A stretch of 7,147 bases of DNA, taken from assembly GCA_030620005.1 (NCBI GenBank), contig JAUXAJ010000266.1, forward strand, positions 1 to 7,147, in the 5' to 3' direction. Shown here one piece after another: positions 816-7,147 of this stretch. Position numbers and translations under genes: made by a program. This DNA is from Promethearchaeota archaeon (GTDB taxonomy: Archaea; Asgardarchaeota; Lokiarchaeia; Sigynarchaeales; SOKP01). How positions within the stretch are numbered: position 1 is the stretch's first letter; each line of letters starts with the position of its first letter. The notes under the pieces are model-generated. The model did not search any database, was not told the DNA's origin, and worked only from the letters and a program-made list of their open reading frames with translations.

Positions 816-1490
816 ATGCCTTTAATATTAATTTTAGTAGAATGTGGATTAGAATTAATACCAAAACAAATCAGGAATCATCCTGCTGTTAAAAGAAATC
901 TATCTACAAAGAATTACGCTTCGCAATTGTTAGACAACGCGTTACATCATTCTGCCATGAAAGAACTAAAAAACTACGAGAAAAGAGGGCGTCCAGATAT
1001 TACACATGTTTGCTTGCTTAACGCACTAGGTTCTCCACTTAATAAATCTGGCAATTTACGACTTTTCATTCATAATATTCACGGTAAAATATTTGAATTT
1101 AATCCTGAAATCAGAATTACTAGAAATTTTAACAGATTTAAAGGATTAAGTGCTAAAATCTTAATAGACACGGAAATTCAAGTAAATGGTTCATACTTAA
1201 TCCGTAATATCAATGGAAGTTTGAAGAATTTAATTAATTCTTTTAAAAAACCAGAAGCGATTCTATTTTCAAGTAAGGGTAAATTATTAAAAAACCATCT
1301 AGATTTGTTTAAAAAAGATATTACAACGAATTACATTGCCATGATCGGAGGCTTTCAAAAAAGCAGTTTTTCGCAAGAAATCTTAGAGTTATCAAATCAA
1401 ATGGTTTCAATTTCAGAATTTCGTCTAGACGCTTGGGTAGTTGTAAACAAAATGTTAACTTATTATGAATTAATTCATGAAATCATATAA
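816..1490 (+). CDS. nep1: rRNA small subunit pseudouridine N1-methyltransferase Nep1 (Emg1)
   Basis: Nep1 is a SPOUT-class methyltransferase that uses SAM to methylate N1 of a pseudouridine in the small-subunit rRNA. It is known in Methanocaldococcus and in yeast and is needed for ribosome biogenesis. The 224-aa protein carries the family signature RGRPDITHVCLLNALGSPLN (57-76), then LRLFIH (81-86) and the substrate-side motif RNFNRFKGL (103-111). Near the C-terminus are the glycine loop MIGGF (176-180), part of the knotted SAM site, and SISEFRLDAWVVVNKML.YYE (198-218), the usual last helix. The N-terminus (LILVECGLELIP) matches the first strand of the fold, supporting the ATG at 816. It follows rnp4, another RNA-processing gene, but has its own TATA-like box. 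In yeast Nep1 is functionally linked to ribosomal protein S19; no S19e gene is seen here. Confidence 0.95.
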   Translation: MPLILILVECGLELIPKQIRNHPAVKRNLSTKNYASQLLDNALHHSAMKELKNYEKRGRPDITHVCLLNALGSPLNKSGNLRLFIHNIHGKIFEFNPEIRITRNFNRFKGLSAKILIDTEIQVNGSYLIRNINGSLKNLINSFKKPEAILFSSKGKLLKNHLDLFKKDITTNYIAMIGGFQKSSFSQEILELSNQMVSISEFRLDAWVVVNKMLTYYELIHEII

Positions 1491-1997: not shown

Positions 1998-3131
1998 ATG
2001 GTTAAAATAATTCATCGCGAATTCAAAACTGCCATAAATAAATTGAAATACCCAGACACATGGTTCTGGTGTAGATATACCATTAATCCATATTCTGGCT
2101 GTCAGCATGCTTGCATATATTGCGATGCGAGAAGTCAGCGCTATTATTTAAGTGACTTTGAAAATGAAGTGGTTGTAAAAATTGATCTAGACAAAAAATT
2201 AGATCAGCGCATAAAGCGAGCTCGTACTTTATTACCGGACGTGGTTGGTCCGGGAGGCGTGTGCGATGGATATCAACAAATTGAGGAAAAAGAGGAAAAT
2301 ACAAGAAAAATTCTAAAGGTATTCGCCAAGCATAAATTTCCCGTCAATATAGCTACTAAAAATAAACTCATAACCAGGGATATAGAAATTTTAAAAGGTA
2401 TCGCTAATGACACGTGGTGTACCGTAGGGTTTTCTATAACAACCACTAATGAAGAATTAGCGAATTTTTTAGAACCTTTTTCTTCTCCGCCTTCAGAGCG
2501 TCTTGAGGCTATTAAGACTATAAAGAAGGAGGCCCCTAATATACAAGTTGGAACTTATTTTATTCCAATTATCCCCTTCCTTGAAGATGATGATGAGAAT
2601 TTAGAAGATGTTTTTAAAAAATCAAAGCAAGCAGGTGCTGATTTTGTATTATTTTCTCCAGGAGTAACAATGAGGAATAAACAAGGAGAATATTTTATAA
2701 AGAAATTAAGAAATAGCAAATATAATAATGTAGTAAAACCTCTTTTAGATTTATACCAAGGACAAATGTTCCCTCAAGGAGATTATGCTAGAGAAATAAA
2801 TAAAAAATTGCTTAGTTCATGCAAAAAATATAATTTGCCTGTACGTGAAAGAAGATGGATCCCTAAAGATTTTCGGAGATGGAATTATAAAATCTCTGAA
2901 CTCTTGTTAAATAAAGAATACATGGCCTCTTTAGAAGGAAAACCAAACAAAACCATGATGTGGGCGGGGTTAATTCTGAACAATTTAGAAGAATCAATTA
3001 TTGATGTATATAAGAGAGGCGAACTGTCGAAATTAAGAAATTTTAACGCAAAAATAATAAAATTTGTAGAACCTTATATAAAAAAGAGTAAAAGATTGAC
3101 TCATAAAACAGGATTAGACAAATTTTTATGA
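1998..3131 (+). CDS. SplB-type radical SAM protein (spore photoproduct lyase-like family)
   Basis: This 377-aa protein belongs to the archaeal and bacterial radical SAM group related to SplB (COG1533 type). It should bind a [4Fe-4S] cluster and SAM and generate a 5'-deoxyadenosyl radical. The cluster motif is C35-x3-C39-x2-C42 in NPYSGCQHACIYCDAR (30-45). Other family segments are GVCDGYQQIEEKEENTRKIL (87-106), which parallels the DPYQPIE motif, TKNKLITRDIEIL (120-132), FSITTTNEELANFLEPFSSPPSERLEAI (145-172) and the barrel strand PIIPFLEDDDENL (190-202). The C-terminal third (about 240-377) is basic and less conserved. The family name comes from spore photoproduct lyase, but archaea make no spores and most members have no proven substrate, so DNA repair is only one option. 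The ATG at 1998 is the first usable start; an ATG at 1985 hits a stop within a few codons. It converges on the 7TM operon, with 41 nt between. Confidence 0.85.
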   Translation: MVKIIHREFKTAINKLKYPDTWFWCRYTINPYSGCQHACIYCDARSQRYYLSDFENEVVVKIDLDKKLDQRIKRARTLLPDVVGPGGVCDGYQQIEEKEENTRKILKVFAKHKFPVNIATKNKLITRDIEILKGIANDTWCTVGFSITTTNEELANFLEPFSSPPSERLEAIKTIKKEAPNIQVGTYFIPIIPFLEDDDENLEDVFKKSKQAGADFVLFSPGVTMRNKQGEYFIKKLRNSKYNNVVKPLLDLYQGQMFPQGDYAREINKKLLSSCKKYNLPVRERRWIPKDFRRWNYKISELLLNKEYMASLEGKPNKTMMWAGLILNNLEESIIDVYKRGELSKLRNFNAKIIKFVEPYIKKSKRLTHKTGLDKFL

Positions 3132-3172
3132 TAGAGCATGATACAATCTAAATCCAATCGAAAGAAGGAATT

Positions 3173-4285
3173 TTAAATTTTAAATATTTCGTTACTAATG
3201 TATTCTATTGGCTCAAATACAGCTATTTCGCCGTCCCAACTTTTAAGAACATTTTCATAAATGGATTCAACTTTTGAAACAAATTTATGCAACAAAACTT
3301 TTAAAGCGTTTAATTCCTTTGACGAAAATATTACACCTGTAACATATTTACCAGGATAAATCATGGTAATCGTTCCTTTTTTTTTTAAAACAGTAACACC
3401 TTGCGTTTCAGTAATTTCATCAAGTAATAGCTTTACACCTGTAATTGCGCCCCCTATTATGTGCTCATCCAATGATTTATCTTTTTCTTGAAATATTTTG
3501 CTATAAAGTGAAATTCCAGATTTACTTAAAATCATGATATTTTCAATAGAATCAAACCAATCGAATTCGGAAAATGGAGGGAGGCTCAAGAAAAAATAAG
3601 AAAATAAAACGATCGCTATTAATTGAGTTATATCGCCCATCAATCGAGCTTCAAGTCCAAGTAATCCAACTAAAGCGTCGGTAGTAAATAAAAATCCTAT
3701 TAGCAATAAACCAACTCCCGGGATATATTTCATCATACCGATTAAAAGCTTCTCCCTATTTTGTACTTTTCTGCTGAACTCTATTAAATAAAAAAACAAG
3801 AATATAACAAATAGCGAAAAAAAGATGTAGGTTATTGTCTGCGTAATTCTAATGTCAATGAAAAACAATATTAAAAAACCAATAGCACAAATCGAAAATA
3901 GAATTGAAAAGAAATATCTCTTAAATAAAAAAACCTTGTAAGTCTCTATACAAAGTAGAAAGAAAAATGCTGCAATCATGATTGTGAAATATCCAAGATT
4001 TAAAAACACATCTCTTACACTTCCTTCCCTCCAAATGTAAAAAGGAGACAAAATATCATCGCTAGCATAGTAATCGCTAAAAATGTAAAAAACAAACATG
4101 AGAGAAAATCCAAGTAATAACGCGAAATATCCTAGTTCTTGTAAATTTCTCAAGTCTTTTTCTGGCTTCAAGTAACGATATAAAAAAATGAAACTAAATT
4201 CCATGCACGTGCATATAAATACGCATTCCATTAATAATAATGGCAATCTTAACGGTCCAGATATAGGAAAATCTAAAAATATCAT
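3173..4285 (-). CDS. Seven-helix membrane protein with C-terminal longin/roadblock-like domain (paralogue B)
   Basis: This 370-aa protein has an N-terminal membrane part with about seven hydrophobic helices (residues 12-38, 51-73, 92-116, 124-145, 147-170, 187-211 and 216-238). The linker LPPFSEFDW (235-243) follows, then a soluble domain of about 125 residues. That domain begins IMILSKSGISLYS, continues with IIGGAITGVKLLLDEIT (277-292), GTITMIYPGKYVTGVIF (304-320), an amphipathic helix, and SWDGEIAVFEPIEYISNEIF. The pattern (strand, GG.I.GI helix, two or three strands, long helix, W.G, final helix) resembles the longin/roadblock (profilin-like) domains abundant in Asgard proteins. This is my reading by pattern and not a database hit. 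The protein lies 12 nt behind its paralogue and is probably co-transcribed; a weak GTGA precedes the ATG. With seven helices and the tail cytoplasmic, it looks like a receptor or sensor. The ligand is unknown. Confidence 0.72.
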   Translation of the reverse strand: MIFLDFPISGPLRLPLLLMECVFICTCMEFSFIFLYRYLKPEKDLRNLQELGYFALLLGFSLMFVFYIFSDYYASDDILSPFYIWREGSVRDVFLNLGYFTIMIAAFFFLLCIETYKVFLFKRYFFSILFSICAIGFLILFFIDIRITQTITYIFFSLFVIFLFFYLIEFSRKVQNREKLLIGMMKYIPGVGLLLIGFLFTTDALVGLLGLEARLMGDITQLIAIVLFSYFFLSLPPFSEFDWFDSIENIMILSKSGISLYSKIFQEKDKSLDEHIIGGAITGVKLLLDEITETQGVTVLKKKGTITMIYPGKYVTGVIFSSKELNALKVLLHKFVSKVESIYENVLKSWDGEIAVFEPIEYISNEIFKI

Positions 4286-4297
4286 AATTCACACTTC

Positions 4298-5452
4298 TCA
4301 TTTTATTATATTTTTTATGATTATATCAAAGCTACCAAATAGTTGTTCTTGATTTTCTGTTAATTCATCAAGATTTGACAATAACTCGTTATAGAAATTT
4401 TCAAATTGATTTATGAGAGAATTTATAAAATATTTATTGCTTTTTATATCTTTTTTGACAACCAAAGCGTATGTTATGAGCGGAAAAAGCTTTCCCTGCT
4501 CTATAATGATAAGTAAATCACCTTGCTTGATTTTGTTTATTTTTTCATCTTGAGTATCCGTTATTACTGAAATAACATGATCTATCCCGATTAATCCCCC
4601 GGAGAAAACTTTCTCTATTTTTTCTTGTTTAGAATCATCTATCACCTTGAATTGATCAATAGCTCTCTCAGAAATATCAGAGAAATCACTGTTATATATA
4701 CAACTTTTATTTTTTGTATTTATAATATGTAATGAGTCCAAGTTTTCGCTCCACTTGAACTCTAAATACGATGGAAAATTAAAGCTTGAAATAAATAGAA
4801 TTATTAAACTCGTTATTAATAGTGTCAAATCCGCGAATAATAATGAGTCGCCAAATGTCGCTGCATAAGGCTCAATTGGAACAATTGCGATAAGAGCTAC
4901 TGATATAACATTTATTATCCACCCAATTAACATCAAAATCAATCTTTTTCTTATATTGCCAACTGAGGTGCTTATTAATCTAATTTGGAAGATAAAGATA
5001 TATATAACGACTATCATTGTAATTAAAAGACTATATAGAAAAAACGGTGACTGTGTAGTTGAAACAAATAAACTTATTACTATTGGTATCATGCTAATTG
5101 CCATTAGAACCTTCGATACTTTCAAGTCTATAGTTGGAAAATCTTTAGAAGATACAAAAAATAAAAACGATATTGGAGAAAGTAAGAGAAGGATATATCC
5201 AAATTTGAAGAAGAATTCTTTCAAAACAAAATTAAAAATAAATATATTAACCGTGATTAATACAAAGGAACCAATAATCGAGAATAACAAAAACGAGCCA
5301 AAAGATAGTAGTATCTTGTAAACCTGAAGTTTTGCATCTCGTATTTTGTAATATTGGAAAAAGTAATAAAAAGAGATTTGTATGCTTAAAATAGCAACAA
5401 CAAGATAAAGAATAAATTGAACTTCATTGATTGCATTCAATTGAAATAACAT
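4298..5452 (-). CDS. Seven-helix membrane protein with C-terminal longin/roadblock-like domain (paralogue A)
   Basis: This 384-aa protein is the first gene of the minus-strand pair and shares the architecture of the next gene. Its seven hydrophobic helices are at about 13-35, 47-73, 81-101, 112-132, 137-160, 170-193 and 206-225. The linker NFPSYLEFKW (225-234) corresponds to LPPFSEFDW in the paralogue. The soluble domain (about 240-384) has LHIINTKNKSCIYN, an acidic insert (257-280) longer than in the paralogue, FSGGLIGIDHVISVITDTQ (283-301), LLIIIEQGKLFPLITYALVV (313-332), the helix FINSLINQFENFYNELLSNLDEL and a final SFDIIIKNII. The two sequences are clearly diverged, with similarity concentrated in the GG.I.G helix and the linker. 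The W.G of the paralogue is replaced here. The ATG at 5452 has no Shine-Dalgarno site, and the promoter is probably the AT-rich repeat at 5501-5518. Signalling through a small GTPase is a hypothesis from domain type only. Confidence 0.72.
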   Translation of the reverse strand: MLFQLNAINEVQFILYLVVAILSIQISFYYFFQYYKIRDAKLQVYKILLSFGSFLLFSIIGSFVLITVNIFIFNFVLKEFFFKFGYILLLLSPISFLFFVSSKDFPTIDLKVSKVLMAISMIPIVISLFVSTTQSPFFLYSLLITMIVVIYIFIFQIRLISTSVGNIRKRLILMLIGWIINVISVALIAIVPIEPYAATFGDSLLFADLTLLITSLIILFISSFNFPSYLEFKWSENLDSLHIINTKNKSCIYNSDFSDISERAIDQFKVIDDSKQEKIEKVFSGGLIGIDHVISVITDTQDEKINKIKQGDLLIIIEQGKLFPLITYALVVKKDIKSNKYFINSLINQFENFYNELLSNLDELTENQEQLFGSFDIIIKNIIK

Positions 5453-6413: not shown

Positions 6414-6962
6414 TCACTGATTGTTAGCGTTTTCTATAGAATTATAAATTTCCAACGCTAATTTTTCAAACACATCGTCCACTCCAACATTATTTTTTGA
6501 ACTTGTTTCAAGATAAACGCTTGACTTTAACTTTGCCAATATCTCATTAATATCTCGAGAATAATATTTAACATTTTCTTCATTTGTTATGTCAAGTTTA
6601 GTTCCAACTAGAACGCTCGGTGTCTCCCCAATAGTATAATCTATTTCTTTCTTCCACTTTAACAAATTAAAATATGTAATATTTCTGGTAAGATCAAAAG
6701 TGTAGATAACCCCGTTAGCTCCTTGGTAGAAATTCTGCCTGATCAATGCAAATTGATCTTGATTTCCAATATCCCAAATTTGCAGTGTTACATACGAATT
6801 AATTTCTGGAATTTTAAGTCTTTTTATAAAAAAATTAGTTCCAATGGTCATTTGAGTATTTGCTAAAAATTTACCCTCAATGTACCGAACAAGAAGTGTA
6901 GTTTTACCAACTCCTCCATCGCCGATAATTACAACCTTATACATTCTCTTTTGCATGTACAT
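6414..6962 (-). CDS. Ras-superfamily small GTPase with atypical switch II (DIGNQ)
   Basis: This is an Asgard-type small GTPase, a GTP-dependent molecular switch. Numbered from the ATG at 6962 (182 aa), the P-loop is GDGGVGKT (14-21), and switch I has T39 in MTIGTNFF. The G3 motif is WDIGNQDQF (63-71), G4 is GTKLD (T121, K122, D124, the Rho/Rac form of NKxD) and G5 is ETSSK (152-156). In most relatives G3 reads WD-T/I/V-A/G-GQ. Here the near-invariant glycine equivalent to Ras G60 is asparagine (N67), while the catalytic Gln equivalent (Q68) is kept. The chain ends in ENANNQ with no cysteine, so C-terminal prenylation is unlikely. The frame is open from a TTG at 6989. ATGs at 6962, 6956 and 6944 are all usable, and the last gives the compact start MYKVVIIGDGG. 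It is convergent with the AlkD-type gene and shares the strand of the 7TM pair but not its operon. Confidence 0.92.
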   Translation of the reverse strand: MYMQKRMYKVVIIGDGGVGKTTLLVRYIEGKFLANTQMTIGTNFFIKRLKIPEINSYVTLQIWDIGNQDQFALIRQNFYQGANGVIYTFDLTRNITYFNLLKWKKEIDYTIGETPSVLVGTKLDITNEENVKYYSRDINEILAKLKSSVYLETSSKNNVGVDDVFEKLALEIYNSIENANNQ

Positions 6963-7147
6963 TCTCGATCGGTAGAAATTTTTTATCAAACATTTACTTA
7001 ATTTTAATAATAACTTAAGTTTTGTAATTTTTTCTAAAGAATAATAAAGATCTTGTTTCTATTAATTTAAAACTTTAGTATCTTTAAAATTTGTACTAGT
7101 TTTACATCTATACGCAGCCCATTTTTAACGATAAGTTGATACTATTT
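6963..7147. other. Upstream region of the GTPase gene, no further gene seen
   Basis: The stretch is very AT-rich. On the minus strand TTATTAAAA (7002-7010) could be the TATA box of the GTPase gene, giving a start near 6980 and a short leader. A minus-strand frame open from the window edge closes at 7108 after only twelve codons. It could be the tail of an upstream gene, but nothing supports this. No other feature is visible. Confidence 0.35.

Follow-up and report, generated by a model that had tools for sequence, protein, structure and literature searches.

What does a membrane protein of seven helices do with a longin-like domain at its end, and why should an archaeon carry two such proteins in tandem? 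The question is raised by contig JAUXAJ010000266.1 of Promethearchaeota archaeon (assembly GCA_030620005.1), the whole 7,147-nucleotide stretch of which is called here the window, and in which two neighbouring genes, A and B, encode diverged paralogues with seven transmembrane (TM) helices (7TM) followed by a soluble tail. A preliminary description, made from the sequence alone, took the tails to be longin- or roadblock-like and suggested that the pair could be a heterodimer of receptor-like design, able to signal to small GTPases directly. The observation is real and is confirmed here, while its interpretation, taken as a whole, is partly supported. The answer that we favour, with a probability of about 0.58, is that A and B would form a heterodimeric 7TM receptor, the paired longin tails of which would be a TRAPP-like platform regulating a small GTPase. 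Its computed basis consists of the 7TM-plus-tail architecture, the topology given by the charge rule, the modelled longin of A, the pairing and co-divergence of the two genes, the GTPase genes upstream of them and the re-use of both modules in other proteins.

Seven helices and a longin tail

A and B are homologous over their full length (BLASTP, 23% identity, E 3e-8) and their profiles align end to end (hhalign, 99.5% probability, E 3.4e-23), so that the description of the two open reading frames (ORFs; Table 1) as tandem, diverged paralogues holds. The seven helices ascribed to each protein are borne out by seven strong TM peaks in both hydropathy profiles and by the AlphaFold2 (AF2) models, in which the helices of A occupy residues 13-39, 48-73, 90-114, 125-143, 148-173, 177-201 and 211-234 (mean predicted local distance difference test score, pLDDT, 84.3), and in which B also has seven TM helices (mean pLDDT 69.0) and a tail of low confidence. 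Two weaker hydropathy peaks lie inside the tail of B (means 1.31 and 1.65), and the low-confidence model puts both in tail helices and strands 4-5. With TM boundaries set by hand from AF2 (TM1 of B trimmed) and fragment rows included, lysine and arginine are enriched, relative to the remaining loops, on loops 1-2, 3-4 and 5-6 and where the tail starts, in 52/52 rows of the A alignment and in 28/29 of B; the N-terminus is therefore predicted to lie outside and the longin tail in the cytoplasm, rather than outside the cell. A 7TM protein with a cytoplasmic C-terminus, the general layout of G-protein-coupled receptors (GPCRs), is thus predicted for both A and B; homology to GPCRs is not claimed.

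The conserved linker noted after helix 7 is likewise real. Over 49 rows of A, P236 is kept in 96%, F238 in 98% and E240, F241 and W243 in 100% of the sequences, and all 24 rows of B share F226, P227 and E231. Conserved charged or polar positions in the outer half amount to 10/127 in A (49 rows) and 3/114 in B (24 rows), the row numbers being unequal, and give a weak hint of an extracellular pocket. A microbial rhodopsin was considered and rejected: a lysine in TM7 is found in just 4/49 A and 1/24 B rows, and TM7 of the window's A and B has none. HisKA_7TM (PF16927) matches neither A nor B; in 14 Asgard genomes it matches three, never at the places of A or B. Among the known families, Pfam gives a chance-level match for A (DUF4865, E 0.56) and none for B, and NCBIfam gives no family for either. 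A 257-residue form of B without the middle TM helices stands beside a full 7TM A at two loci (L001:482-1252 and L005:9216-9986), where it makes a natural 4TM partner.

In the AF2 model, the tail of A runs through strands 247-254 and 259-264, helix 274-292, strands 298-302, 305-311 and 315-321, and helices 326-342, 344-348 and 360-368. This is the longin order, b1-b2-a1-b3-b4-b5-a2-a3, with no helix ahead of strand 1, placed at about residues 245-370, and not an unrelated fold. The tail also matches solved longins across the whole domain (Foldseek, VIA), so that, on this model, the A tail is a longin. In B the strand order is the same at low AF2 confidence, and the putative longin assignment rests on homology to A. 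A roadblock/LC7 fold was rejected for A, which in the AF2 model has no helix longer than three residues between TM7 and strand 1 (residue 247) and has helices at 326-342 and 360-368; of the two folds first proposed, the longin therefore stands and the roadblock falls. Both window proteins carry the GG.I.G helix, as IIGGAITGV in A and as FSGGLIGID in B, but it is a feature of the family in B alone (G285 92%, G286 100%), most relatives of A carrying SAA in place of GG (S278 92%, A280 98%). When 17 tails, drawn from proteins of different architecture, were combined in a profile and compared with PDB sequences, TRAPP longins took the top five of 10 places with weak E-values (0.022-1.1). A Pfam scan of the same tails gave Sybindin in 3/17 (best E 0.0095), Intu_longin_1 in 2/17 and Fuz_longin_1 in 1/17, all weak and below threshold. 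By sequence profile the tail leans, weakly, towards the longins of TRAPP and of INTU/FUZ, both of them from GTPase regulators.

Pairing of the two genes and their GTPase neighbours

Protein databases hold 52 relatives of A and 29 of B, the window's own protein counted in each, and the named ones come from Lokiarchaeota/Promethearchaeota, plus one each labelled Thorarchaeota, Hodarchaeota and Helarchaeota. A profile from a diverse alignment widens the family to at least 52 matches, of which the named ones are all Asgard (a search limited by word seeding, with 7997 candidates scored). The A profile matches at least 217 of 227 genomes from the phylum of G005 (Lokiarchaeota), a lower bound, at most 8 candidates having been scored per genome, and many of these matches are to the tail only, in other architectures. 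Two matches, G142:C11 and G148:C140, are interrupted by many stop codons and look like decayed copies.

Across 70 loci, the gene immediately upstream of A is B for 31/32 A genes of at least 300 bits, for 22/26 at 140-300 bits and for 1/20 below 140; the sole high-scoring exception is a second A after a B-A pair. Apart from the window, 35 Asgard genomes carry such pairs. The gap between the genes, counted from the last sense codon of B and thus including the 3-base stop, has a median of 14 bases (range -29 to 128) over 54 pairs, L047 being left out as a duplicate of L004. The distance matrices of A and B correlate with r 0.864 over 53 of these pairs (L113, with its B cut by the contig end, was omitted), which come from the window and 35 genomes, 36 sources in all, and shuffling partners within multi-pair genomes gave a mean of 0.651 and a maximum of 0.824, with 0/2000 shuffles reaching the observed value. 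The two members of a pair therefore tend to be duplicated, and to diverge, as a unit. In one Helarchaeota locus (L030, genome G009), a local expansion of the family has produced the array B-A, B-A, A, A, followed by two GTPase genes on the opposite strand. Close Loki relatives of the window (L001, L004, L005, L006, L008) have a radical SAM gene, an EMG1/NEP1-like gene or both downstream of the pair, as in the window, and the receptor pair thus stands beside housekeeping genes in this group.

Ras-like GTPase genes cluster upstream of B. Within 2 kb upstream of B, the 54 pairs have 21 GTPase genes (in 20 pairs; 20 genes without the window) vs 1.62 expected, 16 of them on the same strand vs 0.81 expected and 5 on the opposite strand vs 0.81. 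Further upstream there are 2 vs 1.37 expected at 2-4 kb and 2 vs 1.27 beyond 4 kb, and 4 vs 1.7 within 2 kb downstream. The detector used in the loci was a profile of our own, not PF00071, and the expected density comes from at least 1986 matches in 124.3 Mb of 30 genomes, each of which holds at least 52-85 Ras-like GTPase matches. One type of GTPase gene stands on the same strand, 96-137 bases upstream, in seven loci (L082, L083, L084, L086, L087, L088, L139), and other types lie close upstream on the same strand in L085 (61 bases), L089 (30) and L009 (101). Several types are represented among the linked GTPases, which come from Loki-type and Helarchaeota genomes. In a tree of 58 GTPases (25 labelled as linked, some up to 3.4 kb off), the linked label needs at least 8 changes on well-supported branches, and the linked GTPases are therefore not one clade but several; the tree has several long branches and counts gains and losses of linkage alike. 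In the window, the GTPase gene lies on the same strand as B, about 960 bases upstream of it, and the best or second-best match to this GTPase stands upstream of a B-A pair in 5/25 genomes, within 1.4 kb in G157, G156, G134 and G149 and at 3.4 kb in G131.

Four linked GTPase ORFs seemed to have lost the P-loop. This was rejected, because upstream translation reveals a P-loop in frame ahead of the first ATG, GTG or TTG used by the ORF rule, and the four are probably not truncated. The window GTPase reads DIGNQ where linked relatives have DLGGQ, DLAGQ, DFGGE or similar, so that the glycine of the DxxG motif, normally conserved and corresponding to G60 of Ras, is replaced by asparagine; this could reflect an altered response to GTP or a sequence error. 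In L088, two proteins of 521 and 517 residues with a Ras domain (2794-4356 and 7603-9153) flank the GTPase-B-A cluster; their N-terminal part is roadblock-like by eye, with a weak MAPKK1_Int match in one. AlkD was rejected as a member of the cluster, the sole other AlkD match among the loci being a fragment in L018.

Table 1. Features of the window (positions in the 7,147-nucleotide stretch).
Feature	Position	Strand	Basis
Gene A, 7TM-longin protein, 370 residues	3173..4285	-	ORF; 52 database proteins; AF2 model; Foldseek and VIA longin matches; positive-inside in 52/52 rows
Gene B, paralogous 7TM-longin protein, 384 residues, directly upstream of A	4298..5452	-	ORF; 29 database proteins; hhalign to A; positive-inside in 28/29 rows
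B-A junction, 12 bases, consistent with one transcript	4286..4297	-	ORF coordinates
Linker of A, PPFSEFDW, residues 236-243, between TM7 and the longin	3557..3580	-	Conservation over 49 rows
Ras-like GTPase gene, candidate partner, not in the same operon as B	6414..6989	-	PF00071, E 5e-39
AlkD-like gene, between the GTPase gene and B		opposite to both	
Radical SAM gene	1998-3131		
EMG1/NEP1 gene	816-1490		

The modules in other settings and the readings that compete

Both halves of the protein recur in other contexts. The longin tail ends an MFS-like protein (L039:5274-6923, PF07690 E 7.1e-16), a possible transceptor; L041:5251-6900 has the same length as this protein, to which the Pfam scan was applied. 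A separate 129-residue gene lies near each of the two, and that of L041 matches Robl_LC7 at its cut-off. The tail also ends a 1485-residue protein with many PAS domains and HisKA (L040:7375-11829), for which the Pfam scan listed no HATPase_c, so that a kinase may here have been converted to signal through a longin. It further ends TPR-type proteins of 1112-1137 residues (L031 and L032, which were scanned, and L033 and L036 of similar length) and multi-TM proteins of 743-751 residues (L045, L046). Several of the TPR-type proteins belong to one Helarchaeota genome (G009), and L032 has an MIT match just below threshold.

The 7TM module, for its part, occurs alone at about 210-280 residues in some loci, and with cysteine-rich tails, zinc-ribbon-like by eye, in L170 and L175. 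In L172:1161-2852 it is fused to a HisKA domain (E 2.6e-15) and an HATPase domain (E 4.4e-28), and the neighbouring gene encodes a response regulator; the 7TM link itself (E 1.2e-10) appears good, if not beyond doubt, because matches of TM-only profiles can be inflated by helix composition. In L183:1734-3529 a lone 7TM gene comes directly before that of a 364-residue protein in which a longin-like domain (E 1.7e-14) forms the N-terminal part and which also has a winged helix (E 2e-10), possibly a direct route from membrane to DNA, and in L181 the genes for a longin, a 7TM protein and an Arf/Ras-like GTPase adjoin.

The receptor proposal is drawn from paired longins on the cytoplasmic side in the position that the kinase takes in L172, from a sensor-like membrane domain and from frequent GTPase neighbours. 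A and B would form a heterodimer in the Asgard cell membrane, and a stimulus, whether external or within the membrane, would be sensed by the 7TM bundles. TM7 would then relay the change to the pair of cytoplasmic longins by way of the conserved PPF.EFDW linker, and these, as a platform like the TRAPPC1-TRAPPC4 core, would bind a Ras-like GTPase and shift its nucleotide state in either direction, acting as an exchange factor or as a GTPase-activating protein (GAP). What sets off the receptor, how its parts would meet and which way the GTPase would be driven are inferred. Longin and roadblock proteins often form guanine nucleotide exchange factor (GEF) or GAP complexes, according to the available portions of two papers (PMC9481161, PMC10152722).

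Several points weigh against this proposal. Neither in A or B nor in the 17-tail scan does the tail reach the cut-off of a curated Pfam longin model, and the best single E-value of that scan (0.0013, 1/17) belongs to the unrelated cNMP_binding. A gene on the opposite strand separates the window GTPase from B. No GTPase was detected within 2 kb upstream in 34/54 pairs, some with short flanks, across more than 8 kb upstream in L004, L005 and L008, which are close Loki relatives of the window, or in 19 loci of lone divergent relatives. The background density of GTPases is a lower bound, because in 15/30 genomes not all candidates were scored, and a Poisson p of about 1e-16 for the enrichment overstates its significance, because the pairs and the linked GTPases are related by descent. 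Moreover, longins serve in SNAREs and coat adaptors too.

It is on this last point that the best surviving alternative is built, in which the tail, like SNARE longins and the small subunits of AP and COPI, would be a trafficking or sorting module recruiting membrane-remodelling factors, with the 7TM part as cargo or anchor and the nearby GTPases recruiting the complex instead of being under its control. The contexts in which the modules recur are those of signalling instead, with the 7TM part on a histidine kinase (L172) and the tail on a multi-PAS/HisKA protein, and the sequence profiles lean, weakly, to longins of GTPase regulators, so that we regard this reading as unlikely. A somewhat lower rank is given to a 7TM bundle that is a transporter or a membrane enzyme, regulated or dimerised by the longin, with information flowing from the GTPase to the membrane protein. 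Neither A nor B has a Pfam transporter match, and a module found with HisKA-HATPase, with cysteine-rich tails or alone follows a pattern typical of sensors, which makes this second reading distinctly unlikely. That A and B are each homodimers sharing an operon, with the GTPase nearby as conserved neighbourhood and not function, agrees with the divergent A-like relatives that stand alone (B upstream of 1/20 under 140 bits), from which it follows that one chain can suffice and which suggest that a one-chain version is also in use, but is very improbable in view of the close pairing, the partner-specific co-divergence in multi-pair genomes, the several types of linked GTPase and an enrichment that drops to background beyond 2 kb.

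If the heterodimeric receptor works as proposed, small GTPases were coupled to membrane sensing, with neither a kinase nor a trimeric G protein in between, before there were eukaryotes, and a plausible sensory ancestor or cousin is gained for the platforms of TRAPP and Ragulator. Asgard genomes encode dozens of Ras-like GTPases, and the matching of regulators to them is largely open, as described in the available part of PMC10933270; a receptor with a built-in GTPase platform beside specific GTPase genes offers candidate receptor-GTPase pairs. More tentatively, and with rather less than an even chance, 7TM, MFS-like, PAS and TPR sensors could form a phylum-wide Asgard receptor class apart from GPCRs and histidine kinases, sharing a TRAPP-like longin as general transmitter to Ras-like GTPases. 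The longin would then be to this class what HisKA-HATPase is to two-component systems, and small GTPases would have come under receptor control before eukaryotes arose.

Comparison with known systems

The GTPases, roadblocks and longins of Asgard archaea, and the fusions of GTPase, roadblock and TRAPPC3 domains with longin or roadblock, are covered in PMC10933270, the available part of which adds that the GTPase genes of MK-D1 do not generally share operons with roadblocks, longins or fusions; the clustering of Ras-like GTPase genes upstream of B is new here. The main text of that paper has no occurrence of 'transmembrane' or 'membrane protein'. Longins are named merely as a category in the available parts of PMC7997004, PMC9834061 and PMC11291895, and '7TM' is absent from PMC5847659, on archaeal two-component systems. 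A literature search over titles and the starts of abstracts, with preprints and most subscription papers outside it, found no description of a 7TM-longin protein.

The known systems nearest to A and B include the Asgard roadblock, longin and TRAPPC3 proteins (PMC10933270, in its available part) and the Loki roadblock-longin protein of PDB 8yqg. HisKA_7TM kinases are alike in joining a 7TM sensor to a cytoplasmic signalling output, whereas A and B lack a PF16927 match and have a longin as output. In the bacterial MglB-MglA system, a roadblock GAP acts with a Ras-like GTPase; MglB is a soluble roadblock homodimer, whereas A and B have a longin topology and are fused to the membrane part. The TRAPP core longins are the nearest, though weak, neighbours of the A/B tail by sequence profile and a strong match by fold, and TRAPPC1-TRAPPC4 (Bet5-Trs23), in the Rab1/Rab11 GEF, likewise pairs two related longins with a small GTPase, as is proposed here. 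The TRAPP longins, however, are soluble and belong to a large complex that also has TRAPPC3-type subunits, whereas each longin of A and B is fused to a 7TM domain. The nearest working analogy is amino-acid sensing by SLC38A9-Ragulator-Rag, in which a multi-TM sensor is coupled to a platform of roadblock/longin type linked to small GTPases (PMC4922434, in its available part), and the nearest formal analogue of that system is the Asgard MFS-longin fusion. SLC38A9 binds Ragulator as a separate complex, whereas in A and B the platform domain lies within the membrane protein itself, the main form of which is 7TM.
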